Shown here piece by piece: positions 10,647 through 29,299 of a stretch of DNA of 39,285 nucleotides. The position numbers were made by a program, and so were the translations under genes. The notes beneath the pieces are model-generated. The model worked only from the letters and a program-made list of their open reading frames with translations, made no database searches and had not been told where the DNA came from. Within the stretch, counting starts at the first letter, position 1. Each line of letters opens with the position of its first letter. Source of the DNA: Chromatiales bacterium (GTDB lineage Bacteria; Pseudomonadota; Gammaproteobacteria; UBA6429); the NCBI GenBank assembly GCA_027076405.1, contig JALTJN010000441.1, positions 1 through 39,285 on the forward strand, in the 5' to 3' direction.

Positions 10647-10723
10647 TCAGCTGTTCTACCGGACAGTAATTTTTTTTACTATAATCACTTCAATTATTTT
10701 TATATAAATTTCAAGGAAACCTT

Positions 10724-11443: not shown

Positions 11444-11448
11444 TATAT

Positions 11449-11630
11449 TAGCCACTAAGTACACAAAGTACACAAAGAAAATAATAAAAAAAACTTAACC
11501 ACTGTAATTAAGGGTACAGGGGACACGGGGTTATAAATTTTTATCTTTCCCCGCGCGCCCAATGATTTATTGATTTTTGTTTCCTTTGTGTACTTTGTGT
11601 ACTTAGTGTACTTCGTGTTCTTCGTGGCTA
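11449..11630. repeat. Inverted repeat with 9-bp tandem units between rph and rdgB
   Basis: The left arm 11449-11477 reads TAGCCACTAAGTACACAAAG and continues with the same pattern. Its complement returns at 11584-11608, and the last four bases (GCTA) end at 11630 after an 18-base expansion. The right arm is made of imperfect 9-bp units: TACTTTGTG, TACTTAGTG, TACTTCGTG, TTCTTCGTG. The ~105 bases between the arms contain a GC-rich piece (GGGTACAGGGGACACGGGG at 11512-11530) unlike the surrounding AT-rich sequence. This looks like a non-coding palindromic repeat or decayed MITE. The apparent ORF over it is low-complexity repeat translation. Confidence 0.7.
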
Positions 11631-11661
11631 TAATAAAAGTAAATATTACAAGGCAATATAG

Positions 11662-12267: not shown

Positions 12268-12270
12268 AGC

Positions 12271-14178
12271 TCATGAGGTTAATCGCGCATACAATAACGG
12301 AAGTTCTTTTGGCAGCTCGGATGGTTTACGAATGACCACAAAATTTTCTGCACCAAACATATAAGGTAAATATTCACCGCCTTTTTTGTCTATAGTTACA
12401 CAAAATGATTGCAAACCTTTTCGCCGTGCTTCAATTAAGGCCATACGAGTATCTTCAATACCATAACGGCCATCATATAAATCCAAATCATTTGGTTTAC
12501 CATCAGTGAGTAATAAAAGTAATTGCTGGCTTGACGATTGGTGACTTAATATTTCACTAGCCTGCCTGATTGCTGCCCCCATGCGGGTATAGTAACCCGG
12601 TTTTATTGCGTTAATACGGCCACGCGATACATTATTATGTGACTCGTTAAAATCTTTTAGAGTATGAAAACGAATATGCTGACGATAACGGGAAGAAAAA
12701 CCATACATAGCAAACTGATCACCGGTAGCAGAGAGTGCTTCGGCAAAGAGTAACAGGCTATCACGAATTACATCAATTACACGTGCATTATTATTCACAT
12801 AGGAGTCGGTTGATAAAGATAAATCCGCAAGTAATAAACAGGCCATATCACGTATGCCTCCTCTAAACTCACGATATAAGCCCTGCTCTGCTATAGCCTG
12901 CGATTGTTTTTGTTCAGTAACAAAATCCAGATAGGCATCAAGATCAATTTCACTGCCTTCCTTTTGTCCTTTATACCAGATTCGCGAAGGTACTAATGCT
13001 TCAAACTGACTACGCAATTTTTTCGCGGTACCTCGTAATGCAGGCGGGAGTTCAATCGCTTCAGCGGCATCGGCCAGCATCAGTTGTAAACAACAAAAAT
13101 CCTTCACTAACTCTGATTTACGATAATCCCATTCAGGTAATAAAATACCTTCACCTAGTGGTGTGTCATCACTTTCTGCTGATGGCAAATCAAGATCAAA
13201 TCGAATGCGCTTGACCGTACTTTTACTATCTCGGGCAACACTTAACTGATCAAGATCCTTTGCTGAGTCTTCTGCCGTTTGCAGATCTTCATCTTCATCC
13301 GTACTACGATCAACTTTAATATATTCTGCCCAGCTAAAAATATTTTCAAAACGATCCAGCACCAGACCATCTTTACCATCAGGCATATCAACCTTTTCTG
13401 CCTGATACCGTCGCTGCTCTTCTGGTTCAAAGGTCTCACCATCCGATTCAGAACTCACGTTTTCTTCTTCAGAATTAACCAAAGCTGTTTGAGACTGCGG
13501 TGGTGAAGGATGTAACCAGAGATAAACCGGCTGTGGCATATAGCTTAAATTTTTCAGCTCAACCGGTGAAGCAAGCAATTCCTGCGGATTATCCAGTGCT
13601 TGTTGAATAGCAAGTTCTAATTGTGCTTCTTCTTTAGACAGTATTTTATGCTCTGGACGCAAAGCCAGTTGCGCGACAACCAGACGTTGGTAACGTTCTT
13701 CCAAACCCGGAAAATGTTTTAATACTCTACAACTCAACCATTGGTTATAACTAATCCAGTCCATGTTATTTTGTTTAATACCAGCATCACCCGATGCTAA
13801 AGCAGCCAGCCATAAATAAAGATCACGATTAAGTTCTGCCTCGGGAAACACATCAATACTAGCAGGCAAATATAATGATGATTCATTACGCCAGCTTAAC
13901 TCAACATGTTTATTGTTACCTGCTATTCGTTGCAACCAGCTACGGCGGACAATATATTCCGTTGCCAATGTGGATTCTATTTTTAATGCTCCATCTCCAC
14001 CAAGTGCACGGAACATCACGGCAACACTGCGACGAATATCATCAAGATAAATAACTGCATCAGGATAATTTTTAGTGGATTTATGTGTAATCATACGATG
14101 CCACAAAAAACCGACATGCTCTTCCATATCAACCAGTTGATGCAGAGTTTGCATAAATTTAGGAGCTTTAAGCGCCAT
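12271..14178 (-). CDS. norD: NorD: von Willebrand factor A protein for NO reductase activation
   Basis: The 635-residue protein has a C-terminal VWA domain with a complete MIDAS metal site: DLSLS (about 452-456), Thr in YYTRMG (about 531) and Asp in LLTDGKPND (about 559). The N-terminal ~250 residues are helical; the middle (about 225-330) is acidic and low in conservation. NorD works with the AAA+ protein NorQ in activating the NorBC reductase, probably in insertion of the non-heme iron FeB; this is known from Paracoccus-type systems. Its ATG overlaps the stop of the polyferredoxin gene by one base (TAATG), so translation is coupled. It is the last gene of the nor operon. Confidence 0.9.
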   Translation of the reverse strand: MALKAPKFMQTLHQLVDMEEHVGFLWHRMITHKSTKNYPDAVIYLDDIRRSVAVMFRALGGDGALKIESTLATEYIVRRSWLQRIAGNNKHVELSWRNESSLYLPASIDVFPEAELNRDLYLWLAALASGDAGIKQNNMDWISYNQWLSCRVLKHFPGLEERYQRLVVAQLALRPEHKILSKEEAQLELAIQQALDNPQELLASPVELKNLSYMPQPVYLWLHPSPPQSQTALVNSEEENVSSESDGETFEPEEQRRYQAEKVDMPDGKDGLVLDRFENIFSWAEYIKVDRSTDEDEDLQTAEDSAKDLDQLSVARDSKSTVKRIRFDLDLPSAESDDTPLGEGILLPEWDYRKSELVKDFCCLQLMLADAAEAIELPPALRGTAKKLRSQFEALVPSRIWYKGQKEGSEIDLDAYLDFVTEQKQSQAIAEQGLYREFRGGIRDMACLLLADLSLSTDSYVNNNARVIDVIRDSLLLFAEALSATGDQFAMYGFSSRYRQHIRFHTLKDFNESHNNVSRGRINAIKPGYYTRMGAAIRQASEILSHQSSSQQLLLLLTDGKPNDLDLYDGRYGIEDTRMALIEARRKGLQSFCVTIDKKGGEYLPYMFGAENFVVIRKPSELPKELPLLYARLTS

Positions 14179-15128
14179 TATCGATCACTCTCCTGAAAAG
14201 CTGATTGTCCATTCTGCCAGGTTAATAATGAAGGTAATTCTTTTTTTAGTTGTACTTTCTGGCAAGCATTAAGACAACGACCACACTCGGTACAATTAAA
14301 CATATATCGTTTAATTGAACGCGGCTTCAGACGCATGGGACATTCATCTTCACAGGCCACATGGCATCCCTGACATTTCACAGCATTTTTTCGATTATAG
14401 CTCACTACCATGGCACGCTTATTCGCCATCCACACCAGACTTTGAAAAACGCCTACAGCACAGGCAAAGCGGCAAAATAAATGACGAGCAAACATAAATT
14501 CAATACTTAACAAAAAGGTAGCCACACAAATAAATAGCATTTGATTACGTGTTAATGAAAAATGTAGCAGATTGTAATAAATTTCTTTAGGCGGTAATAA
14601 ATAAGTAAGAAAAACAACGGCCCATAAAAAAGCAAAGCCCACCACAGCACTCACCACCAGCCACCAGTATATTTTACGGGGCTGAATATCTTTACCATCA
14701 ATATTATGTAACGAAGGTTTTCTATCCCATAGACTAAATTTTCCACTGGCTTTTCGCATTAAACTATTTACCATTTCTACAACAGAGAAATGCGGGCATA
14801 ACCAGCCACAATAAAGACGGCCATATTTCCATGAAATCCAGCCAAACAATACAACTACTCCCAGCAAAGGTAAAAATGCACGAATAATAATATTTAATAC
14901 TGCATCGATAGCACTTCCTTTACCTGCCATTAATGCTTCAAGTCCAAGCGTCCAATTCTGACCAAAAAAAATAAAATGCCCCAGTTCTAAATCCAGTCTG
15001 AAAATATTAAATACCGGCGTAAAAATAAATAGTAAAAAAAAACTGGTTTGAAAAAACCGTCGTTTCAACTGTAACTTTGTATCTATTAAATCCTCTGGTT
15101 TAGTCATAGAAGAACATACATTCATCAC
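14178..15128 (-). CDS. Membrane-bound 4Fe-4S polyferredoxin, NapH/CcoG-like
   Basis: The 316-residue protein has about five membrane segments and two ferredoxin-type clusters near the C-terminus: C252-x2-C-x3-C-x3-C263P and C279-x2-C-x2-C-x3-C289. Two extra cysteine pairs lie at membrane edges (YCGWLCP, C107/C111; FCRFAC, C219/C223), as in NapH, NosR and CcoG (RdxA) proteins. Such proteins pass electrons from the quinol pool or reduce metal during oxidase maturation. Here it lies inside the nor operon between the small membrane gene and norD. It may deliver electrons for FeB insertion or for the reductase itself; that role is inference. Confidence 0.8.
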   Translation of the reverse strand: MMNVCSSMTKPEDLIDTKLQLKRRFFQTSFFLLFIFTPVFNIFRLDLELGHFIFFGQNWTLGLEALMAGKGSAIDAVLNIIIRAFLPLLGVVVLFGWISWKYGRLYCGWLCPHFSVVEMVNSLMRKASGKFSLWDRKPSLHNIDGKDIQPRKIYWWLVVSAVVGFAFLWAVVFLTYLLPPKEIYYNLLHFSLTRNQMLFICVATFLLSIEFMFARHLFCRFACAVGVFQSLVWMANKRAMVVSYNRKNAVKCQGCHVACEDECPMRLKPRSIKRYMFNCTECGRCLNACQKVQLKKELPSLLTWQNGQSAFQESDR

Positions 15129-15129
15129 T

Positions 15130-15534
15130 CTACCCTAAACTCTTTCGTCCTATAATCGGATAATGATAATGCTTTCCATTCATTGCGCGTGTTAACCCGA
15201 AGGTACCAAACATAATAAAAGCAGAGTGAACAGACGTTAAGTATAGAATCACAATAATCCAGACATAAGGAGAATGATAACCGCCTAATAAAATAATTAA
15301 ACCGTTAACCAGTATCAGCATAATCCCCGCCCAGATACTTGCATTAAATGTTTGTCGTAAATGACAACGTGCTAATGATTTTGTGGTATTTCTATAACGC
15401 AGATATAAACCGAGTAAAATAATAAACCCTAGCACTGGTAGAAAAACCAGATTCAACAAAAATAACGATTCAGCAATAACAGCTAAAGTCTGACCTGACT
15501 GTTCTTCAGTCGAATTATCGTCCGAAAGTTGCAT
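15130..15534 (-). CDS. Small membrane protein, DUF4870-like, in nor operon
   Basis: The 134-residue protein has three to four hydrophobic helices. Its layout resembles the DUF4870/Tic20-like family: a central ARCHLRQTFNASIWAGI (compare HxRQALNF) and an end with NGKHYHYPIIGR. The start overlaps the end of norQ by 20 bases, and its stop is one base before the polyferredoxin gene, so it belongs to the operon. The function is unknown; assembly or insertion of nor membrane subunits is conceivable from context only. Confidence 0.65.
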   Translation of the reverse strand: MQLSDDNSTEEQSGQTLAVIAESLFLLNLVFLPVLGFIILLGLYLRYRNTTKSLARCHLRQTFNASIWAGIMLILVNGLIILLGGYHSPYVWIIVILYLTSVHSAFIMFGTFGLTRAMNGKHYHYPIIGRKSLG

Positions 15535-16333
15535 AGACCACTTCCATCAAGGCATTTACTGTTTCTTCATCATCGGTTAAAGGTTCAACTAATGCTGCCC
15601 GACATGCTTCAACCGGATCAAAGCCGGCTGTCATTAAGGTTGCAGTATAAATTAACAAGCGGGTACTGGCACTTTCTTCCAAATCATGATCTTTTAATGC
15701 ACGCAGTGCATGCGCCAAAGACACCAGTTGTTTTGCTTTATGTTCTTCAATGCCTGTTTCAACCAGAATAATTTGTTGTTCTTCTTGTTGCGGAGGATAT
15801 GAAAAACGCATTGATACAAAGCGTTGTCGGGTGCTAGGTTTCATACCTTTTAATAAATTCTGATATCCCGGATTATAAGAAACCACCAACATAAATTCTG
15901 GTGGTGCCTGTAACATTTCACCAGTACGTTCTATCGGAAGAATACGACGGTCATCTGAAAGCGGGTGCAAAACAACGGTGGTATCTTTGCGTGCTTCCAC
16001 CACTTCATCTAAATAACAAATCCCACCCTCACGCACTGCTTTTGTTAACGGGCCATCTACCCAATAAGTTGAACCATCACCAATGAGATGGCGCCCGACC
16101 AAATCTGCGGCCGTCAAGTCATCATGACAGGCTACGGTATAAAGTGGTCGCCCGAGCTTTTCTGCCATGTAACGAATAAAGCGCGTTTTACCACAACCGG
16201 TTGGCCCTTTAATTAAAACAGGTAACTGGTTTTGCCAGGCATGTTCAAACAAGGCATCTTCATTACCCGTCGACAAATAAAATGGAGATTCTTCTTCTGC
16301 TACCTGTCCAATATCTTTTACTGGCTTTGTCAT
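15515..16333 (-). CDS. norQ: NorQ: MoxR/CbbQ-type AAA+ ATPase
   Basis: The 272-residue AAA+ protein has Walker A GPTGCGKT (43-50), Walker B ICYLDE (105-110), a sensor region SYNPGYQNLLKGMKPSTRQRF with the arginine finger, and the CbbQ/NorQ C-terminal domain. It pairs with NorD, which recognises the target through its VWA domain, to remodel and activate the NO reductase. The gene lies between norF-like and the small membrane protein. ATP-binding residues are all present. Confidence 0.93.
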   Translation of the reverse strand: MTKPVKDIGQVAEEESPFYLSTGNEDALFEHAWQNQLPVLIKGPTGCGKTRFIRYMAEKLGRPLYTVACHDDLTAADLVGRHLIGDGSTYWVDGPLTKAVREGGICYLDEVVEARKDTTVVLHPLSDDRRILPIERTGEMLQAPPEFMLVVSYNPGYQNLLKGMKPSTRQRFVSMRFSYPPQQEEQQIILVETGIEEHKAKQLVSLAHALRALKDHDLEESASTRLLIYTATLMTAGFDPVEACRAALVEPLTDDEETVNALMEVVYATFGR

Positions 16334-16343
16334 TTAATTTCTC

Positions 16344-16628
16344 CTATGAAATACCCAGCCAATAAGCCAGCCCAATCAATGAAATTACAAGCAATAAGTA
16401 AATATTAATAATCATTCGCCATAAAGGCCGGGCATGTTTTAATGCCATAAAATAATCTGCAACCAGATGTGTTTTAACCAGTGTCGATAATAGTAATAAC
16501 ACAACAATAGTAATGCCTGATAAACCCGCCTGCCCTATTGCCAGTACAGCAAGTGTTAAAGCGATCAGAATTAACCATGTCCATGTACAGGGACGCATAT
16601 TCATTTTCGTCATTGTTTTCTTCATCAT
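16344..16628 (-). CDS. norF: NorF-like / cytochrome oxidase subunit IV-like protein
   Basis: The 94-residue protein has three predicted membrane helices. The second contains the pattern LVKTHLVADYFMALKHARPLWR, typical of the prokaryotic cytochrome c oxidase subunit IV family and of NorF. It is placed between norE-like and norQ, as in norEF pairs. NorF is needed for full NO reductase activity in Paracoccus but is not catalytic. An ATG two codons in is an alternative start. Confidence 0.7.
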   Translation of the reverse strand: MMKKTMTKMNMRPCTWTWLILIALTLAVLAIGQAGLSGITIVVLLLLSTLVKTHLVADYFMALKHARPLWRMIINIYLLLVISLIGLAYWLGIS

Positions 16629-16649
16629 CTATTCAGTCTAGTTGAAGTT

Positions 16650-17228
16650 TTATCGAATAACATAAACCAGTGGAAACAAAATAATCCATACAAGATCAAC
16701 CATATGCCAGTAAGAAGCTCCTGTTTCTACCCCGGTATACTCTTCACTTGAATAGCCGCCTTTTTTTGCTTTTAACATAACGGCAATCAAAATAACCATA
16801 CCAAGAATGACATGCAAAAAATGAAAATAGGTCATCGACAAATAAAACATATAAAAGGTATTGCTACTAAGCGAAATACCCTGCGAAAATTTTTCACCAA
16901 ATTCAAATAATTTGATCGCTATAAATACAAAAGACAGTGAAATTGCTGCAAGTAACCATCTGGCACATAACAAGGAATTATTTTCACGTATTGCCGCCAC
17001 CGCACGCACAACAAAATAACTACTGGTAATCAAAACCAATGTATTAACTGCACCACTAACCCGGTTTAAATGTAATTGCGATTCATTAAATAATTCAACA
17101 TTGTGGCTACGGGCAAAAGCATAAGCCAAAAAGAAAATACCAAACACCAGTAACTCTGCATAAATAAATATCCAGATGGCAAAATCACCTGGAGGATATT
17201 GTCTGAGGTTCGTTACTGATTGATGCAT
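16650..17228 (-). CDS. norE: NorE-like, heme-copper oxidase subunit III family
   Basis: The 192-residue protein has five membrane helices. The signature of subunit III/NorE is visible: PPGDFAIWIFIYAELLVFG at the start, MTYFHFLHVILGMVIL in the middle and GASYWHMVDLVWIILFPLVYV at the end. NorE supports NO reductase assembly or stability and has no redox centre. It follows norB by 55 bases; that gap holds an imperfect stem. Confidence 0.88.
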   Translation of the reverse strand: MHQSVTNLRQYPPGDFAIWIFIYAELLVFGIFFLAYAFARSHNVELFNESQLHLNRVSGAVNTLVLITSSYFVVRAVAAIRENNSLLCARWLLAAISLSFVFIAIKLFEFGEKFSQGISLSSNTFYMFYLSMTYFHFLHVILGMVILIAVMLKAKKGGYSSEEYTGVETGASYWHMVDLVWIILFPLVYVIR

Positions 17229-17231
17229 AAG

Positions 17232-17277
17232 TAATTAACACCGGGATTCAACTAAAACGAACCCCGGGTTAATTCAA
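17232..17277 (-). other. Stem-loop between norB and norE
   Basis: TTAACACCGGG (from 17236) faces CCCGGGTTAA (to about 17274) across about 16 bases, with one bulged base. No T-run follows in the direction of transcription. It may stabilise the norCB part of the message or set the ratio of norCB to the accessory genes. Confidence 0.4.
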
Positions 17278-17283
17278 CCAGAT

Positions 17284-19112
<1,829 letters not shown>

Positions 19113-19150
19113 AACGGGTTTTCCCCCTATATTTAATAATTATGGGGAAA

Positions 19151-19191
19151 ATTATATTGGACATAATTTGTATAACCTTGACTTACATCAA
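19151..19191 (-). promoter_or_regulatory. norC promoter: Dnr/FNR box plus consensus -10
   Basis: The 14-base palindrome TTGACTTACATCAA (19178-19191) fits the TTGAY-N4-ATCAA consensus of Dnr/Nnr/FNR regulators. On the minus strand a perfect TATAAT lies at 19156-19151. This puts the box centre near -40.5 to -41.5 from the expected start at about 19144, the classic class II activator position. The Dnr-type regulator gene lies immediately upstream. Confidence 0.85.
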
Positions 19192-19219
19192 GATTGACTA
19201 AATTACCGGGACTTAAAAA

Positions 19220-19903
19220 TTAAAGTAACTGTCTGAGGCCATCAACATCCAGCAAACAAATATCATTTCCTTTAACATCAATGTAACCCTGTTTACGCAC
19301 TTGATGTAATACCCGCGAGAAGGTTTCCGGCTGAATCGATAAACGCGAAGCAATAATATTTTTTGGTGTACTTAAATGGATATCCGATAACTCAATGGCA
19401 CCCTCAGGAATTTGTTCAAGCAGATAAACAACAAAACGATAGGTCGCATTATGCAAAGAAAGATTATTGATGTCATTAATCATGACATGTAAATGTCTGG
19501 CCATAATGCCAAGTAAACGAATACAAAGTTCATTAGAATGTTCCAGCATCTCCCGAAACACCTTCATTTCAAAACGATATATTTCACTCTCTTTAATGGT
19601 TTCAGCACTCAACGGATAGACCTGTTTTGTCATAAACATAATAGCTTCAGCAAAGGTTTGCGGAGGATTAATTATTTCCATGACTTTTTCAACCCCGCTT
19701 TCAGATATCGTAAATAGCTTTAACTGGCCACTTCGCAACAAATAGAAATATTCTGCCGGTGTGTCTTTTTCAAATAATACTTTTTTTGCTGGCAAGTTAA
19801 TTTTTTTACAGCTGGCAAGAACTGTTTCTAGCTGTTCATCATTCAAAGCTTTAAACAAGGGAATGGGATGGAACTCGTCTAAATTAAATTTAGTATCCTG
19901 CAT
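19220..19903 (-). CDS. dnr: Dnr/Nnr-type Crp-Fnr transcription regulator
   Basis: The 227-residue protein has an N-terminal cyclic-nucleotide-like sensor domain and a C-terminal winged helix. Blocks such as PPQTFAEAIMFM, NNLSLHNATYRFVVYLL and the recognition helix IIASRLSIQPETFSRVLHQV match Pseudomonas Dnr closely (compare LSIQPETFSR). It lacks the N-terminal cysteine cluster of FNR, so an oxygen-sensing 4Fe-4S cluster is unlikely. Dnr senses NO through heme and activates nor genes under denitrifying conditions. It has its own box 32 bases before its start codon, placed so close that autorepression is as likely as activation. Confidence 0.9.
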   Translation of the reverse strand: MQDTKFNLDEFHPIPLFKALNDEQLETVLASCKKINLPAKKVLFEKDTPAEYFYLLRSGQLKLFTISESGVEKVMEIINPPQTFAEAIMFMTKQVYPLSAETIKESEIYRFEMKVFREMLEHSNELCIRLLGIMARHLHVMINDINNLSLHNATYRFVVYLLEQIPEGAIELSDIHLSTPKNIIASRLSIQPETFSRVLHQVRKQGYIDVKGNDICLLDVDGLRQLL

Positions 19904-19934
19904 AAATATTAATCTTTACCAAAAACAAGTTATC

Positions 19935-19948
19935 TTGATCTCTATCAA
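19935..19948. promoter_or_regulatory. Dnr/FNR box between dnr and the thioredoxin-like gene
   Basis: TTGATCTCTATCAA is a perfect match to the Dnr/FNR consensus. Toward the plus strand, a -10-like GATTAT (19971-19976) lies exactly at class II spacing, predicting a start near 19983 and a 39-base leader for the gene at 20022. Toward dnr the box centre is about 38 bases from the ATG, too near for class II activation of a normally spaced transcript. Confidence 0.85.
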
Positions 19949-20021
19949 GGAAAATTTATAACAACAGGTAGATTATTGTCAGCTACAAATACAAGCTAAG
20001 AGTATAGGAAATTAAAAGCGG

Positions 20022-20282
20022 ATGGTAGCAATATTAATTTTATCCGGCATAGGTGCTTTAAATCATTCTACAGAAACCATATGGAAGAAGGTATGCGAGA
20101 AATACCGTATCGAGCTCGCTACATATAATTTATCGGATGACCGTCTCCCGGAACATATTAAAGAGCTGAAACTCACCTCTTTCCCCTCTTTTATCATGAA
20201 TAATAAAGTCATGGCCGTGGGCCATCCGGATGATCAAGCGGCAGAAGAAATCATCTTAAATTTAATCGATAAGCAACATTAA
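20022..20282 (+). CDS. Thioredoxin-fold protein without CxxC, next to dnr
   Basis: The 86-residue protein shows the compact beta-alpha-beta pattern of thioredoxin-like proteins. It begins VAILILSGIGALNHS, where a CxxC would be expected, and later has LKLTSFPSFIMNNKVMAVGHP, the cis-proline strand pair typical of the fold. The only cysteine (KKVCEKY, about residue 27) is in the first helix, so thiol-disulfide exchange of the normal kind is ruled out. Divergent from dnr with a perfect Dnr box at class II distance, it should be induced together with norCB. The function is unknown; a binding or redox-sensing accessory is possible. Confidence 0.7.
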   Translation: MVAILILSGIGALNHSTETIWKKVCEKYRIELATYNLSDDRLPEHIKELKLTSFPSFIMNNKVMAVGHPDDQAAEEIILNLIDKQH

Positions 20283-20331
20283 ATTGACTATGTTAGATAT
20301 AACAAAATTCTATTTTTGAACGAGGAGTTTA

Positions 20332-20345
20332 TTGATCTGGATCAA
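20332..20345. promoter_or_regulatory. Orphan Dnr/FNR box, no gene start following
   Basis: TTGATCTGGATCAA is a perfect consensus box located 50 bases after the thioredoxin-like gene. To the right, TATTAA (20371-20376) or GACTAT (20368-20373) can serve as a -10 at -41 to -44 spacing. No protein start lies downstream on the plus strand before 21425. Confidence 0.75.
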
Positions 20346-20380
20346 TAACCACAACAGCAAATAGCCTGACTATTAATCCT

Positions 20381-20408
20381 ACATTTATTTCCGATTAAAT
20401 GTTTTTTT
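20381..20408 (+). terminator. AT-rich hairpin with T-run
   Basis: ACATTTA (20381-20387) pairs with TAAATGT (20396-20402), and six Ts follow at 20403-20408. The stem is weak but the T-run is good. It could terminate the transcript of the gene at 20022-20282 or form the 5' stem of the candidate sRNA. Confidence 0.45.
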
Positions 20409-20410
20409 AC

Positions 20411-21046
20411 TCACGGATATTCGACATACCTTGAGTACCTTGCAGGAGAGGAAGCCCCTTCCTCTCCTTTTTTTAATGATAATTCATCAGTATCCGGCAG
20501 GTTTTCAAAAACATCCTTAACTGTTTTATTGGTGGTTAATGCCCGCACAACGACATTAATCGGTTCTGCCAGAATATCGGGGAAATCTTGTTCATTATCA
20601 TCATTAACAGGAAATGCCAGCTGTTCAGTCGGTGGCAGGAACTGTGCATTTACACCTTGTTTATTGCCACGCGCATCAATTCTGTACCAGCCGAAATCCT
20701 TTAAATAGACCGCATTCAGTCCATGTAAACTATACGGCGCACCATCCTCATTGATACTTAAGCGTTGATAACACAAACCGGCGGGTATTTTATTCGCCCG
20801 TAATAAAGCAGCCAGTAAATGACTTTTTGCAAAACAATAACCTGTACCATGTTTTAAAACGTCAGAAGCCTTACAGGTAACCGGGTCGAGTTTATAATCC
20901 CAGCTATGCTTAATATTATCTCGCACCCATTCATAACAATTTTTAGCCGTGTCTATTTCATTCTTTTCAGAAAGTTTATTGGCTAATTTTAAAATAGCGG
21001 GATTTTCCCAATCAAGGTATTTTGAAGATTCTAAAAACTTTTGCAT
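20411..21046 (-). CDS. Transglutaminase-like cysteine protease-fold protein
   Basis: The 211-residue cytoplasmic protein has a transglutaminase core. The catalytic triad is visible: C71 in GTGYCFAKSHLLAALLRA, H108 in YSLHGLNAVYL and D124 in WYRIDARG. Bacterial members act as peptidases, amidases or transpeptidases; the substrate here is unknown. The last ~20 residues (KKGEEGASSPARYSRYVEYP) are encoded by a plus-strand terminator and look like a non-conserved tail. A 41-residue membrane peptide gene ends ten bases upstream, so the two are probably cotranscribed. No signal peptide is seen. Confidence 0.8.
   Translation of the reverse strand: MQKFLESSKYLDWENPAILKLANKLSEKNEIDTAKNCYEWVRDNIKHSWDYKLDPVTCKASDVLKHGTGYCFAKSHLLAALLRANKIPAGLCYQRLSINEDGAPYSLHGLNAVYLKDFGWYRIDARGNKQGVNAQFLPPTEQLAFPVNDDNEQDFPDILAEPINVVVRALTTNKTVKDVFENLPDTDELSLKKGEEGASSPARYSRYVEYP
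20445..20474 (+). terminator. Strong rho-independent terminator inside the antisense gene's 3' end
   Basis: GGAGAGGAA (20445-20453) pairs with TTCCTCTCC (20459-20467), a perfect 9-bp stem with a five-base loop; seven Ts follow immediately. It is directed on the plus strand, although it lies within the final codons of the minus-strand gene at 20411-21046. Confidence 0.8.
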
Positions 21047-21055
21047 ATTAAAATT

Positions 21056-21181
21056 TTAGTTTAAATATTGAGTAATAATGAATACTGAAGATAACAATAT
21101 TCCTGAAATTAGAACCATTATATTAATCATTTTTTTTCTTTGTTCTGCCTTATGAGCAGCTTCTTGATATTCTTCAAACAT
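21056..21181 (-). CDS. Small membrane peptide (41 aa) upstream of transglutaminase-like gene
   Basis: ATG 21181 opens a 41-codon frame with a charged N-terminal part (MFEEYQEAAHKAEQRKK) followed by one hydrophobic helix (MINIMVLISGILLSSVFII). AAGGAA lies about ten bases upstream, and an in-frame stop nine codons before the ATG fixes the start. It ends ten bases before the transglutaminase-like gene. A single-helix peptide with a charged cytoplasmic arm could anchor or regulate its neighbour; no family is recognised. Confidence 0.55.
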   Translation of the reverse strand: MFEEYQEAAHKAEQRKKMINIMVLISGILLSSVFIITQYLN

Positions 21182-21242
21182 GGAATGCGGTTCCTTTTTA
21201 CTATTTTAATTATCATTTTACAGACCGCTTATACTGTAGTTC

Positions 21243-21271
21243 GTACAAGGTACGTTATAACGACCTTGTAC
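21243..21271. promoter_or_regulatory. Near-perfect palindrome upstream of hemW
   Basis: GTACAAGGT (21243-21251) and ACCTTGTAC (21263-21271) flank an inner CGTTATAACG palindrome, making a 29-base symmetrical site offset by one base. A plausible plus-strand -10, TATACT, lies at 21230-21235, just before it. It could be an operator for the divergent small-peptide and hemW genes or the first stem of a leader RNA. Confidence 0.45.
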
Positions 21272-21301
21272 CTTAGTTTATATAATATATATTACAATTT
21301 T

Positions 21302-21325
21302 ATGTGCAATACAGCGCACATTTTT
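21302..21325 (+). terminator. Possible attenuator-like hairpin in hemW leader
   Basis: ATGTGC (21302-21307) pairs with GCACAT (21316-21321) and runs directly into TTTTT (21321-21325). It lies 100 bases before the hemW start on the same strand, downstream of the palindrome at 21243 and before the CTATAAT/ATTATAG palindrome at 21354-21368. The stem is short. Confidence 0.35.
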
Positions 21326-21424
21326 ATATGTATTTTATCAGACTGTGACTCAGCTATAATTATTATAGTTATATAAAGTAAGGACATGTACAATTAAATT
21401 CTCACTATTACTTAACTGTTAATT

Positions 21425-22585
21425 ATGTTCAACTTTACTGAATTACCGCCTTTATCACTTTATATCCATTTCCCATGGTGTGTACAAAAATGCCCCTACT
21501 GTGATTTTAACTCACATGAATTAAAAACAACGCTTGATGAGAGAAGCTACATCAATGCCTTGATCTTAGATCTTGAGCAGGAACTTCCTCTATTTTGGGG
21601 CAGAAATGTGACAAGCATATTTATGGGCGGTGGTACCCCCAGTTTATTTAACCCGGAAAGTATTGATCAACTAATTTCTGAATTACGGGCACGCCTGACT
21701 TTCGCACCTGACATTGAAATAACTATGGAAGCCAATCCGGGAACCGTTGAGCTGGGGAAATTTACAGAATTTCGTCATGCGGGAATTAATCGCTTATCCA
21801 TCGGTATTCAAAGTTTTAACGATGAAAAATTACAAAAATTAGGCCGAATACACGGTCGTAAAGAAGCAATCCGTGCTGCCGAACAAGCGCATGATGCCGG
21901 CCTTAACAGTTTTAATCTTGACCTTATGTATGGATTGCCAAATCAGTCTTTATCACAGGCACGCGAAGACATTAATACCGCCATTGCGCTGGAGCCAAAA
22001 CACCTTTCTCATTATCAGCTCACTATTGAACCGAATACTTTTTTCCATCATCAACCACCAACGACTCCCGATGATGATCATCTATGGGAGATGCAACTCG
22101 CCTGCCAGTCAGAACTGTCTCATAATAATTACAATCAATATGAAATTTCAGCTTATGCAAAAGATGACTATCAATGCCAGCATAATTTAAACTACTGGCA
22201 ATTTGGTGATTACCTTGGCATTGGTGCAGGCGCACATGGAAAACTGACTAATGCCCCCGAACAACTCATTACCCGTAGCTGGAAAGTTAAACAACCTCAG
22301 GATTATTTAAGCAAAGCTAAAACACCACAAAGAATTTCCGGAGAGAAAACATTAACTCGTGATGATGCTGCTTTTGAATTTATGATGAATGCCATGCGTT
22401 TAAATAATGGTTTTGAAACTGAAATATTTCAGCGCCATACCGGCCTGCCTATTTCAACGATAAAAAACACACTGCAACAGGCAGAAGAAAAAGGCTGGAT
22501 ACATTGGGACTTAAAACGAATTAAACCAACAGACACAGGAAGACAGTACCTTAATACATTATTAGAACTCTTCTTACCTGAGTAA
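21425..22585 (+). CDS. hemW: HemW, radical-SAM heme chaperone
   Basis: The 386-residue radical SAM protein has the cluster motif CVQKCPYCDFNSH (CxxxCxxC), GGGTPSLF for SAM binding and the HemW C-terminal domain (NLNYWQFGDYLGIGAGAH). It lacks the extra cysteine directly after the motif that true HemN (anaerobic coproporphyrinogen dehydrogenase) carries, so HemW is preferred. HemW binds heme and delivers it to respiratory membrane enzymes; it could serve NorB/NorC, both heme proteins encoded nearby, but that link is inference. In E. coli it follows rdgB directly. The start codon has only a weak ribosome-binding site. Confidence 0.93.
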   Translation: MFNFTELPPLSLYIHFPWCVQKCPYCDFNSHELKTTLDERSYINALILDLEQELPLFWGRNVTSIFMGGGTPSLFNPESIDQLISELRARLTFAPDIEITMEANPGTVELGKFTEFRHAGINRLSIGIQSFNDEKLQKLGRIHGRKEAIRAAEQAHDAGLNSFNLDLMYGLPNQSLSQAREDINTAIALEPKHLSHYQLTIEPNTFFHHQPPTTPDDDHLWEMQLACQSELSHNNYNQYEISAYAKDDYQCQHNLNYWQFGDYLGIGAGAHGKLTNAPEQLITRSWKVKQPQDYLSKAKTPQRISGEKTLTRDDAAFEFMMNAMRLNNGFETEIFQRHTGLPISTIKNTLQQAEEKGWIHWDLKRIKPTDTGRQYLNTLLELFLPE

Positions 22586-22600
22586 ATGAGGACGTAGTCA

Positions 22601-23383
22601 TTGGAACTTAGCGGGTTTTCATTAGATTTACTTTTTGTACTTTTTATCATTGCCATCATCGCAGGTTTTATTGATACTCTCGCGGGTGGAGGCGGTTTAA
22701 TTACCATGCCCGCCTTACTCATTAGCGGCGTTCCTCCTCTGGCAGCTCTTGGCACAAATAAACTACAAGGCAGTATCGGTACCGCAACATCAACCTACAT
22801 GATGTTAAAGCATAAGCGCATTCACTGGCATAATATAAAAAATCTCATGCTGTTTGCTTTTATCGGCTCTACATTGGGAACCGTTGCGGTTCAGTTTATC
22901 AACATAGAAATATTATCTTTTATTATCCCGGTTGTACTATTTATTATTGTTATCTATTTTATTTTTTCTCCTGTTGCAAAGAACACTCCATCAAAATCAA
23001 AATTATCATATAAGATGTATCAATATACCGTCGTCCCTGCCATTGGCTGGTATGATGGCATGTTTGGTCCTGGTACCGGTTCATTTTTTTCCCTTGCCGG
23101 TGTAGCACTACAGGGCCATGGATTAATTAATGCTACTGCCACAGCTAAAGCACTTAACTTTTCAACCAACATTGCCTCATTATTTGTTTTTATTTATTCA
23201 GGACAACTTGTCTGGATTTTAGGGTTTTCCATGATGTTTGGACAAGCATTAGGCGCATGGTTTGGATCACATTCTCTCTTAAAAATTAATCCTTTATTAC
23301 TAAGAAGTATTGTAGTTTTAATGTGCCTTGTTATGCTGACAAAATATATTATTAATATGGCGACAATACCCGCTATCAACTAG
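22601..23383 (+). CDS. TSUP (TauE/SafE) family transporter, YfcA-like
   Basis: The 260-residue inner-membrane protein has about eight helices. The family signature is the repeated motif near residues 24-47 (GFIDTLAGGGGLITMPALLI, PPLAALGTNKLQGS) and its second half-copy (WYDGMFGPGTGSFF, ATAKALNF). TSUP members export small sulfur compounds or organic anions; the substrate here is not known. Translation starts at TTG, supported by GAGG nine bases upstream and the absence of an in-frame ATG near the family start. It follows hemW by 15 bases and is probably in the same operon. Confidence 0.88.
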   Translation: MELSGFSLDLLFVLFIIAIIAGFIDTLAGGGGLITMPALLISGVPPLAALGTNKLQGSIGTATSTYMMLKHKRIHWHNIKNLMLFAFIGSTLGTVAVQFINIEILSFIIPVVLFIIVIYFIFSPVAKNTPSKSKLSYKMYQYTVVPAIGWYDGMFGPGTGSFFSLAGVALQGHGLINATATAKALNFSTNIASLFVFIYSGQLVWILGFSMMFGQALGAWFGSHSLLKINPLLLRSIVVLMCLVMLTKYIINMATIPAIN

Positions 23384-23394
23384 AGTATAAGCCC

Positions 23395-23838
23395 ATGAAA
23401 AATGCTGTACCAAAACAAGCAAAAACAGATCAGGAGATTATTGACTGCTTTAAAGTGATGTCGGAACTCAGACCTCACCTAATAGAAAATGATTTCTTAC
23501 AAACTGTTCGTCATATGCAAACCGAAGGCTACCAACTCGTATTTATAGAAGATAACAATCATGTTGTAGCCACTGCAGGTTATCGTATTTACACTAACCT
23601 GTTTATGGGAAAGCATCTTTATATTGATGATCTTGTAACCAGAGAAAATTTCCGCTCACAGAGTTATGGTGAAAAATTAATAAAATGGTTAAGAGAACTT
23701 GCTTTAAAAGAAAAATGCAATGTTTTACATCTGGATTCCGGCACACATCGCACTCAGGCACATAAGTTTTATTTTAAACAAGGCTTTACTATTGCCAGCT
23801 TCCATTTCAGCGAGCAATTAGTTAAGCATGAAGCTTAA
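23395..23838 (+). CDS. GNAT family N-acetyltransferase
   Basis: The 147-residue protein has the GNAT fold: YIDDLVTRENFRSQSYGEKLIKWL carries motif A (Q/R-x-x-G-x-G/A variant, SQSYGE) for acetyl-CoA, and LDSGTHRTQAHKFYFKQGFTI is motif B, where the residue after the neutral-substrate pocket is typical of small-molecule acetyltransferases. The acceptor substrate is unknown. It begins 11 bases after the transporter gene and overlaps the next gene by 11 bases, so all three are cotranscribed. Confidence 0.88.
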   Translation: MKNAVPKQAKTDQEIIDCFKVMSELRPHLIENDFLQTVRHMQTEGYQLVFIEDNNHVVATAGYRIYTNLFMGKHLYIDDLVTRENFRSQSYGEKLIKWLRELALKEKCNVLHLDSGTHRTQAHKFYFKQGFTIASFHFSEQLVKHEA

Positions 23839-24085
23839 CAAAAACATATATAAACCTGTTTCATGTGAACAGCATAGTCAGTATGAACTTGCCATCATGC
23901 ATAAAAAAAAGTTGCAGCTTGTCTATAAAGATGAAAATAGTTCAACAATAAGTGATATAGTAACTCCTATTGATGTGCAAACAGTAAATAAAGCCGAATA
24001 TTTAGTTGCTTTATCATCTGAAAATAAAAAATTTCACGTACGACTCGATTACATTGAAAAATTCAATATTTTTAATAAAAGTTAA
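23828..24085 (+). CDS. Rof-like Rho-binding antiterminator
   Basis: The 85-residue protein matches the pattern of the Rof (YaeO) family: YKPVSCEQHSQYELAIMHKK at the start (compare YxPIxCxxYDxLExA), a middle beta-strand set, and the end AEYLVALSSENKKFHVRLDYIEKF (compare EYL...LRLDxI). Rof binds Rho and inhibits Rho-dependent termination. Sequence identity to E. coli Rof seems low, so this is a fold-level assignment. The start overlaps the GNAT gene by 11 bases. A weak stem (TGTAAAT/ATTTACA, 24096-24119) follows the stop. Confidence 0.6.
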   Translation: MKLNKNIYKPVSCEQHSQYELAIMHKKKLQLVYKDENSSTISDIVTPIDVQTVNKAEYLVALSSENKKFHVRLDYIEKFNIFNKS

Positions 24086-24124
24086 ATCTGCATCGTGTAA
24101 ATTAATGTTTGTATTTACATATAT

Positions 24125-24141
24125 AACTTGTAATGCAAGTT
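24125..24141. promoter_or_regulatory. Small palindrome before the thioesterase gene
   Basis: AACTTG (24125-24130) and CAAGTT (24136-24141) form a 6-5-6 inverted repeat in the AT-rich spacer 24086-24238, about 98 bases before the thioesterase start. It may be an operator; no regulator is implied. Confidence 0.3.
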
Positions 24142-24238
24142 TTATAACTAACTATTATTAAAAAAATAAATAATGTTCTAAGTCACAAATTTAGACCAAA
24201 TAAAAAGTAATAAAAAAACATCTAGATGGGAGAAAATA

Positions 24239-24655
24239 ATGAATAAAATATATGAATATAAAACAACCGTGACCATTGGTGACACAAATGCACTTCAAAA
24301 TATGTACTTTTTAAATTTTTTCAAGCTGCAGGGTATTGTTCGTGAGTTATGGGTTAAAAAACATGTAAAAAACGGTTTTCAGGATCTGGCAAATGGCATG
24401 GTATTAATTACTAAAGATGCCCGCTGTAATTTTATGAAAGATTTCTATCTGTTTGATGATATAATTGTCAAACTCAACTTTACAAAAATTGTAAAAACAA
24501 ATACCCGGCTTAATTTTGAATATTTTAATGCAAAAACAAAAGAGCTTCATGCCAGAGGATCACAAACCATTGTTTTTGCAGATCATCAGCATAATGTAAT
24601 AAAAATACCTGATAACTGGGAAGAAGCAATCAAACAATATTTTATTGAGTCATAA
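24239..24655 (+). CDS. Hotdog-fold acyl-CoA thioesterase (4HBT family)
   Basis: The 138-residue protein has the 4HBT layout: YEYKTTVTIGDTNALQNMYFLNFFKLQGIVRELWV, with the conserved Asp and Asn of the hotdog thioesterase active-site loop (D15, N18), then a long central helix and the strand set NFEYFNAKTKELHARGSQTIVF. It resembles the thioesterases attached to enediyne or polyunsaturated-lipid clusters, but no such cluster is here. GGGAG stands nine bases before the ATG. It converges on the histidine kinase gene. Confidence 0.75.
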   Translation: MNKIYEYKTTVTIGDTNALQNMYFLNFFKLQGIVRELWVKKHVKNGFQDLANGMVLITKDARCNFMKDFYLFDDIIVKLNFTKIVKTNTRLNFEYFNAKTKELHARGSQTIVFADHQHNVIKIPDNWEEAIKQYFIES

Positions 24656-24694
24656 ATCAGACTGTAACAAATATACTTATTATAAAGACAAAGG

Positions 24695-26791
24695 TTAAGT
24701 GTGTTGAGCGCCCTGATAAATGCGCTCACACATAACGCCTAAATTTTCTAATAAATCTTCTATTGCCGAATAATCCTTTTCTTTAAGACGATTTTCTATT
24801 TCTTCCGCAATGTTAGTTAAATCCGGATAACCAAACCCTCCTGCTGTCCCTTTTAAATCGTGAGCAACTTGTGCCAGTGCATAGAATTCGTTATTACGAA
24901 AAGTGGAAACAATCTGCTGTTGCATTTTTCGTAAAGAATCAATAAAATTATATAATAGATCTTCAAATCTTGGTTCTTCCTGTATCAATGCTGAATATAT
25001 CGGTTCCTGATAAGAAATACTTTCAGCTGTCTCCAGGTATTTAGCGGTTGTGTCATATAGCTTTTGTCTGACAATTGGCTTGGTAACAAATTCATCTACA
25101 CCTGATTTCATACATTCAGCTTTATCATCTGCCGTTGCATTCGCTGTGAGCATAACAATCGGGCTTTTATATCCCTCACTTCGTAATATTTTAACCGCTT
25201 CGAGTCCGGACATGACCGGCATTTGCATATCCATATAAATAAGATCATAAGGATGATGTTGAGCAAGAGAAACTGCGATTGAACCATTATCAGCGCAACT
25301 GACTCTTGCCCCCATTTTTTCAAGATACATACGAATGAGTTCCTGATTTACATCATTATCTTCAACCAGAAGGATATCGCCCTTCAGCGTTTTATTCTTA
25401 ATCGTACTAACACTATTATCTTCTTTACTAAATACAAGCTCATCAATATTATTATAAAAGAGCTCTTCGGATTTTTTATCCAGCTTTAAACAAAACGTGA
25501 ACACAGAGCCTTTATCTTCTTCACTACTAGCGATTAACTTTCCACCCAGTAAATCTGCAAGCTGGGTTGATAAAGATAAACCCAATCCTGTACCGCCATA
25601 ACGTCGTGATATACTGCTATCTGCCTGTTTAAATGGTTTAAATATTTTATTCAACTGAGCGCGCGTCATTCCGATACCGGTATCTTTCACGATAAAATTC
25701 AGTTCATGATGTTGCGCATCATATTGAATGGTGATTGTTATTTCGCCAGCATCGGTAAACTTTATAGCATTATTACAAAGATTAATTAAAATCTGCTTTA
25801 AACGTATTGCATTACTGTTAATATTTTTTGGAAGAGGAAAGGTGTAATCAATAACAACTTTTAATCCCTTTTTATTCGCCTGTCCCATGATAATCGGTTC
25901 GACTTCATAAACCTGTTGTAACGGGTTAATCAGTGTTTTCTCAATTTGTAACTCGCCTGCTTCTATTTTTGAAAAATCAAGAATGTCGTTAATTAAACCC
26001 AAAAGATGATCACCACTACGACGAATTGTTTTTAAAGCCGTGATCCGTTGTTGTGTTGTCTGATCATGATCTAGTCCTGTATCGGCATAACCAAGAATCG
26101 AGGTTAATGGTGTACGAATCTCATGACTCATATTTGCCAAAAAGCTCTCTTTAGCCCGGGTTGCGGCAACGGCCCTGTCTCTTGCAACGGTAAGTTCTTC
26201 TTCTGTTTTTTTTCTTTTTTCTATTTCATTTTCCAAATCAAAACGCATGGAAAGTTCTAAAGTATGTAATTTTTCCCGATATGATTTTATTGTCCATGTA
26301 ACAATAATAACGCCGATAATAAAAAACACATTAACACTGAATTCCGCAGCACTATTTGCCTGCTCAATCCAGTTCGCTTCAAGTACCAGGTATGGGCCAT
26401 AGATTAAGATAATTGCAATAAAAAAATTCCGATTATTCCAGGGGATAAAACTCAAACCACCAATGGCAACAAGATGTAGAGGAATAAAATAAAGTGCACC
26501 TTGCCCAATAATAAATATCATTATATTAAGAATAGACGCGCAGATAAATGCCAGAAATAAACCAGCATACTCAGCCTGACGAATGTCATCCGTGTGTTTA
26601 AGCCACCAGTTAACGATTAATGCAGTCGGAATGATTAGAAAACGTACTCCAAGAAATTCCCATTTAAGTTGAGGAACATAAATAAGATCCAGGAGCCAAA
26701 ATAAAAAATACAGAGGCACTGCCACTTTATTAGTAATGACGGTGATTATCTGCTTTATTTCAGATAGTTTTTCTTTTTCGAGATTACTCAT
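24695..26791 (-). CDS. Hybrid sensor histidine kinase with REC and HPt domains
   Basis: The start is set at ATG 26791; the frame runs nine codons further to a TTG. The 698-residue protein has about six membrane helices (residues ~20-170) and no periplasmic sensor loop of any size, then a coiled coil and HisKA with SHEIRTPL (phospho-His about 223). HATPase boxes follow (NLCNNAIKF, DTGIGM, GGTGLGLSLS), then a receiver domain (VEDNDVNQ, MDMQMPVMSG, phospho-Asp about 521) and a C-terminal HPt with AHDLKGTAGGFG (His about 644). All phosphorelay residues are present. The final response regulator is not next to it, so output and signal are unknown. Confidence 0.93.
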   Translation of the reverse strand: MSNLEKEKLSEIKQIITVITNKVAVPLYFLFWLLDLIYVPQLKWEFLGVRFLIIPTALIVNWWLKHTDDIRQAEYAGLFLAFICASILNIMIFIIGQGALYFIPLHLVAIGGLSFIPWNNRNFFIAIILIYGPYLVLEANWIEQANSAAEFSVNVFFIIGVIIVTWTIKSYREKLHTLELSMRFDLENEIEKRKKTEEELTVARDRAVAATRAKESFLANMSHEIRTPLTSILGYADTGLDHDQTTQQRITALKTIRRSGDHLLGLINDILDFSKIEAGELQIEKTLINPLQQVYEVEPIIMGQANKKGLKVVIDYTFPLPKNINSNAIRLKQILINLCNNAIKFTDAGEITITIQYDAQHHELNFIVKDTGIGMTRAQLNKIFKPFKQADSSISRRYGGTGLGLSLSTQLADLLGGKLIASSEEDKGSVFTFCLKLDKKSEELFYNNIDELVFSKEDNSVSTIKNKTLKGDILLVEDNDVNQELIRMYLEKMGARVSCADNGSIAVSLAQHHPYDLIYMDMQMPVMSGLEAVKILRSEGYKSPIVMLTANATADDKAECMKSGVDEFVTKPIVRQKLYDTTAKYLETAESISYQEPIYSALIQEEPRFEDLLYNFIDSLRKMQQQIVSTFRNNEFYALAQVAHDLKGTAGGFGYPDLTNIAEEIENRLKEKDYSAIEDLLENLGVMCERIYQGAQHT

Positions 26792-27028
26792 GGGGGAATG
26801 TCTCTCTCGATGGCCCAATAATTTCTTTTTATATTGAGCTAATTGTTATAGAAAGTATAATCAATTACATCTTAAAAGCATACAAAAATAATAACAATTA
26901 ATCATACTAACTTATATCTAATTATTTTCTACACTAACTGTCTTTTACTATCAATTACACATAAAAACTTGATCATAATTTATAAATACGTATTCTGAAT
27001 ACTTTATCGACTTAAATAAGCTTCCAAT

Positions 27029-27391
27029 ATGACTTCACATACCCATTGCAGCGATATTTATTCCTATCGCACCAAAGATGATTCCGAAATCAGGGAACTC
27101 ATGCACCCGAAATATCATGGCAATAAAAATCAAAGTCTGGCCGAAGCGATTATAGGTCCCGGACAAATCACACATAAACATCGCCATAAAACATCAGAAG
27201 AGCTTTACCATATCACACAGGGACAAGGCATGATGATTTTAGGTGATGCTCAATTTGCTGTCGCAGTAGGTGATACTTTATGTATAAAACCCGGTACGCC
27301 ACATCATATTAAAAATACCGGAACCACACCGTTACATATTTTGTGTATGTGTTCTCCTCCGTATAGTCACGAAGATACCGAACTTTTATAA
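27029..27391 (+). CDS. Cupin-domain protein
   Basis: This 120-residue single-domain cupin has the metal-binding residues in two motifs: THKHRHKTSEELYHITQGQG (HxH and Glu) and PGTPHHIKNTG (His). Such small cupins include mannose-6-phosphate isomerase-like and sugar-binding proteins. Its stop codon abuts the ATG of the ROK kinase gene, so the two are translated as a pair, which hints at sugar metabolism. The ribosome-binding site is weak. Confidence 0.8.
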   Translation: MTSHTHCSDIYSYRTKDDSEIRELMHPKYHGNKNQSLAEAIIGPGQITHKHRHKTSEELYHITQGQGMMILGDAQFAVAVGDTLCIKPGTPHHIKNTGTTPLHILCMCSPPYSHEDTELL

Positions 27392-28288
27392 ATGCGTATT
27401 GGTATTGATCTCGGCGGAACAAAAATTGAAGGCATTGCCCTCGATAATGCGGGTAACGAACTTTTTCGTCAACGTATTGATACCCCGCAAGGTAGTTATC
27501 AAAATACCATTACTGCCATCACTCAACTTGTTTTAGATATTGAAACGCAAACTCAACAAACAGGCTCAGTCGGTATTGGTATACCCGGTACCCTTTCACC
27601 TAAAACGGGACTTGTTAAAAATGCTAATTCTGTCTGGCTCATCGGCCAACCTCTGCTGACCGATCTCGAAACACAATTAAAGCGAAAAATTCGTATAGAA
27701 AATGATGCCAATTGCTTTGTTGTTTCTGAAGCGACCGACGGTGCAGCAAAAGATGCCGAAATTGTGTTTGGTGTCATTATTGGAACAGGCACAGGAGGCG
27801 GTATTTATATTCTGGGCCAATCCATTATTGGTGCAAACGCCATTGCCGGTGAATGGGGGCATAACCCGTTACCCTGGCCAACTCAGGATGAGTTGCCCGG
27901 CAGAAAATGTTATTGCGGTAAACTTGGTTGTATTGAAACATGGTTATCCGGTCCCGGATTTGCAAAAGATCATCAAACAATAAACAAACTTAACACCATC
28001 ATGACTGCTAAAGATATTGTCTTGCTTGCAGAAGAAGGTGATCAATCTGCCCAGGCTTCAATACACCGCTATGCAGAACGCCTGGCAAAAAGTCTGGCAA
28101 GTATTATTAATCTTATTGATCCGGATGTGATTGTTCTTGGTGGCGGCATGTCGAATATAAAACCGCTTTATACACTTGTACCGGCAATATGGGATAACTA
28201 TATTTTTTCAGATCATATCACTACTCAACTTGTACCACCTAAACATGGCGATTCAAGCGGAGTAAGAGGGGCTGCCTGGTTGTGGTAA
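27392..28288 (+). CDS. ROK family sugar kinase (NagK/Mak-like)
   Basis: The 298-residue protein has the ATP-binding DLGGTKIEG at residues 6-14, the GIGIPG segment, IGTGTGGGIYI and the ROK zinc motif (GHNPLPWP, then CYCGKLGCIE). These fit N-acetylglucosamine kinase or fructokinase (Mak) of the ROK family; the exact sugar cannot be read from the sequence. The ATG follows the cupin stop without a gap. It converges with the nitrilase gene. Confidence 0.88.
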   Translation: MRIGIDLGGTKIEGIALDNAGNELFRQRIDTPQGSYQNTITAITQLVLDIETQTQQTGSVGIGIPGTLSPKTGLVKNANSVWLIGQPLLTDLETQLKRKIRIENDANCFVVSEATDGAAKDAEIVFGVIIGTGTGGGIYILGQSIIGANAIAGEWGHNPLPWPTQDELPGRKCYCGKLGCIETWLSGPGFAKDHQTINKLNTIMTAKDIVLLAEEGDQSAQASIHRYAERLAKSLASIINLIDPDVIVLGGGMSNIKPLYTLVPAIWDNYIFSDHITTQLVPPKHGDSSGVRGAAWLW

Positions 28289-28327
28289 AATAAATTACTC
28301 TTTCCAGCTGCACCTCTAATAAAAACT

Positions 28328-29287: not shown

Positions 29288-29299
29288 TATGTATTCCCT

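Follow-up and report, generated by a model that had tools for sequence, protein, structure and literature searches.

A candidate FNR-type small RNA gene conserved in relatives of a Chromatiales bacterium and its possible descent from ompW

The stretch of DNA analysed here (the window; 39,285 nucleotides of contig JALTJN010000441.1 from a Chromatiales bacterium) carries a perfect FNR-type box that is followed, at a distance of 98 nt, by a terminator hairpin. This raises the question of what is transcribed from the box, under which regulator, and where such a unit comes from. In a first-pass annotation, a Dnr-driven small RNA (sRNA) antisense to a transglutaminase-like gene had been proposed. 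According to the present analysis, 20332-20475 is very likely an sRNA gene with an oxygen-response switch, conserved in related bacteria. The reading preferred here, with a probability of about 0.75, is that of a stand-alone gene for a trans-acting sRNA, activated by a regulator of the FNR family and descended from the promoter and the 3' end of an ompW gene.

To our knowledge, few FNR/ANR-dependent sRNAs have been well studied. The genomic neighbourhood of FnrS and the locus of PhrS both differ from the locus described here. FnrS of Escherichia coli is a hypoxia-induced sRNA that depends on FNR, and PhrS of Pseudomonas aeruginosa is an sRNA whose expression needs ANR, the FNR counterpart (both as given in the available part of PMC5703892). 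The present sRNA is similar to the former in its predicted FNR-type regulation and to the latter in its predicted FNR/ANR-type control, but it has no Rfam match.

Promoter, terminator and neighbouring genes

The FNR/ANR-type box TTGATCTGGATCAA is located at positions 20332-20345 (no strand assigned), with its centre at -41.5 from the predicted transcription start, and this position is common to the four relatives that carry the sRNA. Two perfect copies of TTGATNNNNATCAA (at 19935 and 20332) were found in the window against 0.17 expected, a number reached by two of 100 shuffled sequences; the perfect box reported at first pass was confirmed. With a class II activator bound at -41.5, the -10 hexamer ends 34.5 nt from the box centre. 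Of the two hexamers originally put forward, GACTAT (20368-20373, forward strand) is the one that this geometry demands, its place at box start + 36 being that of a class II promoter. TATTAA lies 3 nt off. At the same offset, GAACAT, GATCAT, GACTAT and GAATAT were read in G283, G285, G287 and G282, respectively, as well as GAACAT and CAGTAT in two further loci with a box (G289 and G288).

An intrinsic terminator could be located at 20444-20475 on the forward strand. Its seven Ts, which extend to 20475, had been described correctly before, while the stem, then given as 9 bp, comprises 11 bp (20444-20454 paired with 20458-20468) around a 3-nt loop. This terminator ranks first among 22 terminator-like sites in positions 10000-29999, where 14.8 are expected. 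With the start taken from the promoter geometry and the end from the terminator, the predicted sRNA spans 20380-20475 on the forward strand and measures about 96 nt. Folding of this RNA gave -29.6 kcal/mol (z = -7.0), mostly due to the terminator. Since the box, the spacing of the -10 hexamer, the core and the terminator are all found again in four further genomes, the layout goes beyond chance, and at the level of sequence the earlier proposal of an sRNA gene of 90-95 nt is supported at the slightly greater length. The FNR-type box stands at an activating position ahead of the predicted promoter, as in FNR/ANR-dependent sRNA genes, and the unit behind it is short, terminator-ended, conserved as RNA and apparently non-coding, a short open frame over the core being possible.

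To the left of the sRNA, an rdgB-like gene (Ham1 family, PF01725), behind which the sRNA or ompW is found in relatives, is situated at 11662-12267 on the forward strand. It is followed on the reverse strand by a nor-type cluster together with a Crp/Fnr-family regulator gene, dnr (12271-19903), names that were derived from Pfam matches and gene order. An ORF of 86 amino acids (20022-20282, forward strand) is oriented divergently from dnr and has its own box at 19935-19948, also of the FNR form and with GATTAT at the corresponding offset ahead of the ORF. No Pfam or NCBIfam match was obtained for this ORF; by eye only, it appears thioredoxin-like. To the right, a transglutaminase-like ORF of 211 residues (PF01841) is found at 20411-21046 on the reverse strand, and a hemW-like gene (PF04055 and PF06969; 21425-22585, forward strand) marks the slot on its right-hand side.

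Between rdgB, which ends at 12267, and the sRNA, the window thus carries the nor cluster, dnr and the 86-aa ORF. The nor-dnr cluster is absent between rdgB and the sRNA in four relatives (G282, G283, G285 and G287), and we infer that its position in the window represents an insertion. The sequence ATATAACAAAATTCTATTTTT ahead of the window box is still similar to the end region of rdgB in the relatives.

Conservation in related genomes

Relatives were selected with SpoT, which over 274 sampled genomes of the class pointed to G126; family and order gave 40 genomes. The searches for the sRNA type of the window, here called class A, covered these 40 genomes of the nearest order, and the class A genomes beside the window are G282, G283, G285 and G287. 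A DNA search with 20326-20480 matched G283 (95%), G285 (94%), G287 (88%) and G282 (84%) with E values of 3e-30 to 3e-17, each match having a box match upstream. Bases 20395-20474 recur once per genome in these four of the 40 genomes at 84-95% identity. Conservation of box and terminator in close relatives had been set beforehand as a test of the first proposal, and all four genomes keep both, the box in its perfect form and followed at equal spacing by a -10-like hexamer.

In the layout shared by the class A loci, TTGATCCAGATCAA is followed by the hexamer at box + 36 and by a leader that varies; then come the core ACTCA(C/T)GGATATTCGACATACCTTGAGT and a U-tailed terminator. The hairpin core ACTCACGGATATTCGACATACCTTGAGT (20409-20436, forward strand) is invariant in 27 of its 28 columns across the five genomes; as a yardstick, 30 of 176 four-fold sites of rdgB and rph are invariant among four of the five (window, G283, G287 and G282). 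Counted from the box start, the element GGATATTC begins at a distance of 83 nt in the window but of 111-118 nt in the relatives, so the RNA of the window would be about 30 nt shorter than theirs.

A covariance model (R2) was built from the five sequences, window included. In the window, it matches 20405-20475 with 98.5 bits and nothing else up to E 10, the window being itself a member of the model. At E <= 1e-5, five of the 40 genomes were found, namely the four class A genomes and G289, with a diverged locus at 41 bits. When G289 was added, three terminator pairs proved to be changed on both sides, each in one of the six sequences, a count reached by 3 of 500 shuffles; sliding the partner by +2 still gives two double-changed pairs, and the alignment was fitted to the model. 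No co-variation was seen in the pairs of the core hairpin in these six sequences. A weak R2 match in G305 (L118, 1501-1577) differs at three positions from a 16-nt part of the class A core; no box was found within 350 nt upstream of it.

Comparison with Rfam gave no family at gathering score in the window or in ten loci of relatives. Membership by descent in an Rfam family, be it that of FnrS, PhrS or another, was rejected, as the matches did not exceed chance level. In IMG/VR, an exact match was found neither for the class A core nor for that of a second candidate type, class B.

OmpW genes in the same slot and a second candidate type

In G282, G283, G285 and G287, the sRNA is located directly behind rdgB and ahead of a phosphonate-binding-protein-like gene; the contig of G285 carries only the end of rdgB, and in G287 hemW follows further on. 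In other genomes of the set, this position is occupied by ompW, the gene of an outer-membrane protein. The order rph, rdgB, box, ompW was observed in G288, G276, G126 and G312, and the gene next to the rdgB-side box of G288 is an intact member of the OmpW family (PF03922, 4e-54). Boxes also precede ompW in G313, G306 and G307, with the last base changed in the latter two, and no box was seen in up to 260 nt read upstream of the distant OmpW genes of G277 and G278. Between rdgB and hemW of G289 (L124), a box, two pieces of ompW, a diverged core and a terminator could be distinguished. The two pieces correspond to residues 2-23 (E 0.005) and 164-207 (E 1e-7) and represent a decayed ompW. OmpW was detected at E <= 1e-5 in 11 of the 40 genomes, one of these matches being weak (22% identity). 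The four class A and the six class B genomes are not among them.

The 3' part of the sRNA was compared with the region behind ompW. Towards G289, all five class A sequences beat 500 of 500 shuffles, and towards G288 four of the five beat all 500, while for G282 the score was reached by 3 of 500. A general likeness among terminators may contribute to this similarity. The leader resembled the ompW leader in G287 twice (score reached by 9 and 16 of 500 shuffles), in G282 towards G288 (9) and, weakly, in G283 towards G289 (21); the other six of the ten comparisons, including both of the window and those of G285, did not beat the shuffles. A search of the five class A loci for remnants of an ompW peptide gave nothing convincing (best E 1.2). 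Among seven loci with intact ompW, R2 gave a match in one (G288, 20 bits), compared to the 41 bits of the remnant locus of G289. We infer that the sRNA consists of the ompW promoter and 3' end that were left after loss of the coding sequence, the direction of change being from ompW to sRNA. Since the tree based on rdgB and rph does not resolve the clade (supports 21-53), the intact ompW of G288 may mean that several losses took place.

In the case of MicX and MalH, the parent gene persists. These two occupy one genomic location, with an own promoter in one species and an origin from a 3' end in the other, and NarS is an sRNA from the 3' end of an FNR-controlled gene, where RNase E cuts the narK mRNA (both as described in the available part of PMC9438474). 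As far as that part of the source goes, NarS and MicX/MalH would be the nearest analogies to an origin from the 3' end of ompW. On the proposed origin, the present locus would differ from NarS in having no coding sequence left between the promoter and the 3' end, which adjoin each other, and from MicX/MalH in that the parent gene was lost.

Class B sRNA candidates were found upstream of hemW in six genomes, G294-G299 (L132, L140, L145, L148, L150 and L153), each with an FNR-type box, -35 and -10 elements, a core and a terminator. Their core, GCTGGCAT(T/C)ATCTCCATGACCGCTT, is different from that of class A, starts 149-173 nt after TGATCCAGATCA, and comprises 25 nt that are invariant save one base in one genome. 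In the class B promoter, a -35-like TTGNNN begins 9 nt past the box and is followed after 17 nt by TATA(T/G)T, a placement that would put the box near -51.5. The corresponding model R3 finds the six genomes at E <= 1e-18 (69-84 bits), while no score exceeds 28 bits among the other genomes of the 40 or among 369 genomes of the class; in the class-wide search, performed with stricter filters, 53 of the 369 genomes gave matches at E <= 0.01, the best with 27.6 bits. Forty-two weaker matches of the two models (15 of R2 and 27 of R3) were read, and in none of them was a box (up to one mismatch) present within 350 nt upstream. These loci are mostly plain terminators, and a few are coding-like. The class B loci have no Rfam match.

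A common descent of the class A and class B cores is possible. Cross-matches were obtained with R2 on one class B locus (16.9 bits) and with R3 on five ompW or G289 loci (13-15 bits). The tree places G126 and G312 beside its four class B genomes. Both have two boxes ahead of ompW, and the second one is CTGATCCAGATCAA, the form found in five of the six class B boxes. The two FNR-type boxes upstream of ompW in these genomes (L231 and L232) are 50 bp apart, an arrangement that recalls the two sites of E. coli ompW. As separate observations, the predicted class B loop UAUCUCC looks anti-Shine-Dalgarno-like, and in G294, when the core piece is folded together with its 3' neighbour, the hairpin with this loop appears in the centroid fold only and not in the MFE fold.

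Activator, mode of action and alternative readings

FNR (NF008365) was found in 38 of the 40 genomes and, at E <= 1e-30, not in G294 and G308. The Dnr of the window was matched in 22 of the 40 at E <= 1e-50, including all four class A genomes; at this threshold, no match was obtained in G289, which has a box and the diverged sRNA, or in G294, which has a box and a class B candidate. The class A boxes keep TTGAT-N4-ATCAA; in many relatives, the boxes of norC and of the 86-aa ORF have TTGAC or GTCAA halves. In E. coli, FNR activates ompW from TTAATCCAGATCAA at -81.5, a site that resembles the TTGATCCAGATCAA of the class A loci, and represses it from a second site (available part of PMC4886647), while oprG is a member of the core Anr regulon of Pseudomonas (available part of PMC6588701). 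The window and its four class A relatives differ from ompW and oprG in having no ompW coding sequence left. On these sequence comparisons, FNR at low oxygen is most likely the activator of the predicted sRNA. It is a better guess than Dnr because the box is of FNR/ANR type, ompW, whose slot this is, is an FNR/ANR target, and G289 and G294 have boxes without a Dnr match; the role of Dnr as driver, assumed at first pass, is unproven. As all four intact class A genomes have Dnr, a Dnr/NO input, direct or via read-through from the 86-aa ORF, may act as well.

In the proposed mechanism, an activator of the FNR family would bind the box at -41.5 and start an RNA of about 96 nt near 20380, which would end at 20475. 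This RNA would carry an invariant imperfect hairpin, ACUCA..UGAGU enclosing GGAUAUUCGACAUACC, beside the U-tailed terminator. It would probably act in trans, with the top of the core hairpin, a part that is weakly paired in the fold prediction, as the surface for base pairing. It would descend from an ompW behind rdgB that lost its coding sequence, the FNR promoter and the 3' end being what was left.

A G-U tolerant search for the complement of the core in four genomes gave 33 matches, including four to the sRNA itself; the reversed control gave 15. The 29 other matches were all read; no site occurs in more than two genomes, and no target is common to the four. Four pairs are shared between genomes; three of them are located far inside coding sequence, and the fourth (G282 and G287) is situated 42 nt inside an ORF start. 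The lack of a four-genome target, the core pairs without co-variation and the presumed derivation of the core from the 3' end of an mRNA would also suit a conserved 3'-UTR remnant or a protein-binding hairpin with no base-pairing function. However, the promoter is kept at its exact spacing with no other gene to transcribe, and the invariant, weakly paired top would fit a pairing surface. We therefore consider this alternative improbable.

A reading in which the terminator does no more than end the mRNA of the 86-aa ORF, the second box having no promoter function, is very improbable. The stop codon of this ORF does lie 49 nt before the box at 20332, none of the listed terminators is present between the ORF and 20444, and its mRNA may run on through the sRNA. 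However, box, -10 hexamer and core recur in G282, G283, G285 and G287 behind rdgB and not behind that ORF. The ORF is divergent from dnr in 11 of 18 nor loci of the order genomes, with an FNR/Dnr-like box between both genes in all 11, and the 450 nt behind the pair showed neither a perfect box nor such a terminator in any of these 11 relatives. The same observations speak against the tie to nor that had been suggested at first pass, and judged by gene order, the sRNA locus is not part of the nor locus.

Slightly less credence still is given to a gene for a short peptide ending in ..YS(R/W)IFDIP over the core, 11 residues long in the window. Each of the five genomes keeps this frame open up to the stop; an in-frame ATG is present in the window, G283 and G287, and GTG or TTG in G285 and G282. 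On the other hand, start codons and lengths vary, the sequence is missing in G289, no clear Shine-Dalgarno sequence could be seen by eye, and the sole change in the core alters a residue (CGG/TGG). Within the core, the third positions of codons vary no more than the first two, so coding is an unlikely cause of its conservation.

The transglutaminase-like ORF as called overlaps the sRNA at 20411-20475, and its residues 190-211 (20411-20479, stop included) come from reading the strand opposite the sRNA gene as codons. Among the best 120 of 7999 homologues, query included, lengths are mostly 189-198 residues. With 95% identity, the closest other homologue in that set is 189 residues long, its end lying in the conserved NLPDT region; the C-terminus in the window is 22 residues longer, so the "last codons" of the ORF 20411-21046 are not conserved coding sequence. 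In 20 loci found by a search with this ORF, the match stops at residues 185-193 and the frames mostly end within a few codons; in L002 and L011, a stop is present right where the match ends. At the sRNA loci of G283 and G285, only the tail matches (residues 188-211 or 192-211), and the transglutaminase body is absent from the five relatives' sRNA loci that were read (G282, G283, G285, G287 and G289). As the extra residues complement the sRNA gene, the proteins of relatives have no such tail and the sRNA loci have no transglutaminase body, the overlap appears to be an incidental read-through tail that is not seen in relatives. The sRNA as antisense of this gene was consequently rejected, and control of the gene in cis under Dnr/NO deserves hardly any credence.

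With class A and class B, the FNR/ANR-type sRNA candidates are joined by two sequence families for which Rfam gave no match. Among the open-licence papers listed, titles and abstract openings mention no sRNA at rdgB-hemW and none that is derived from ompW. A more far-reaching and rather doubtful extension is that the sRNA gene was born by collapse of the porin gene ompW, selection having frozen its RNA part afterwards, that the ompW promoter gave rise to an sRNA a second time in a sister clade (class B), and that in the window the arrival of nor-dnr just upstream may have added an NO-responsive input by read-through. If this is true, the oxygen response of the locus would have been passed twice from protein to RNA. 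Related genomes show intact ompW, an ompW remnant with a core and the bare sRNA side by side, and the origin of sRNA genes from the 3' ends of decaying genes thereby becomes testable by sequence and experiment.
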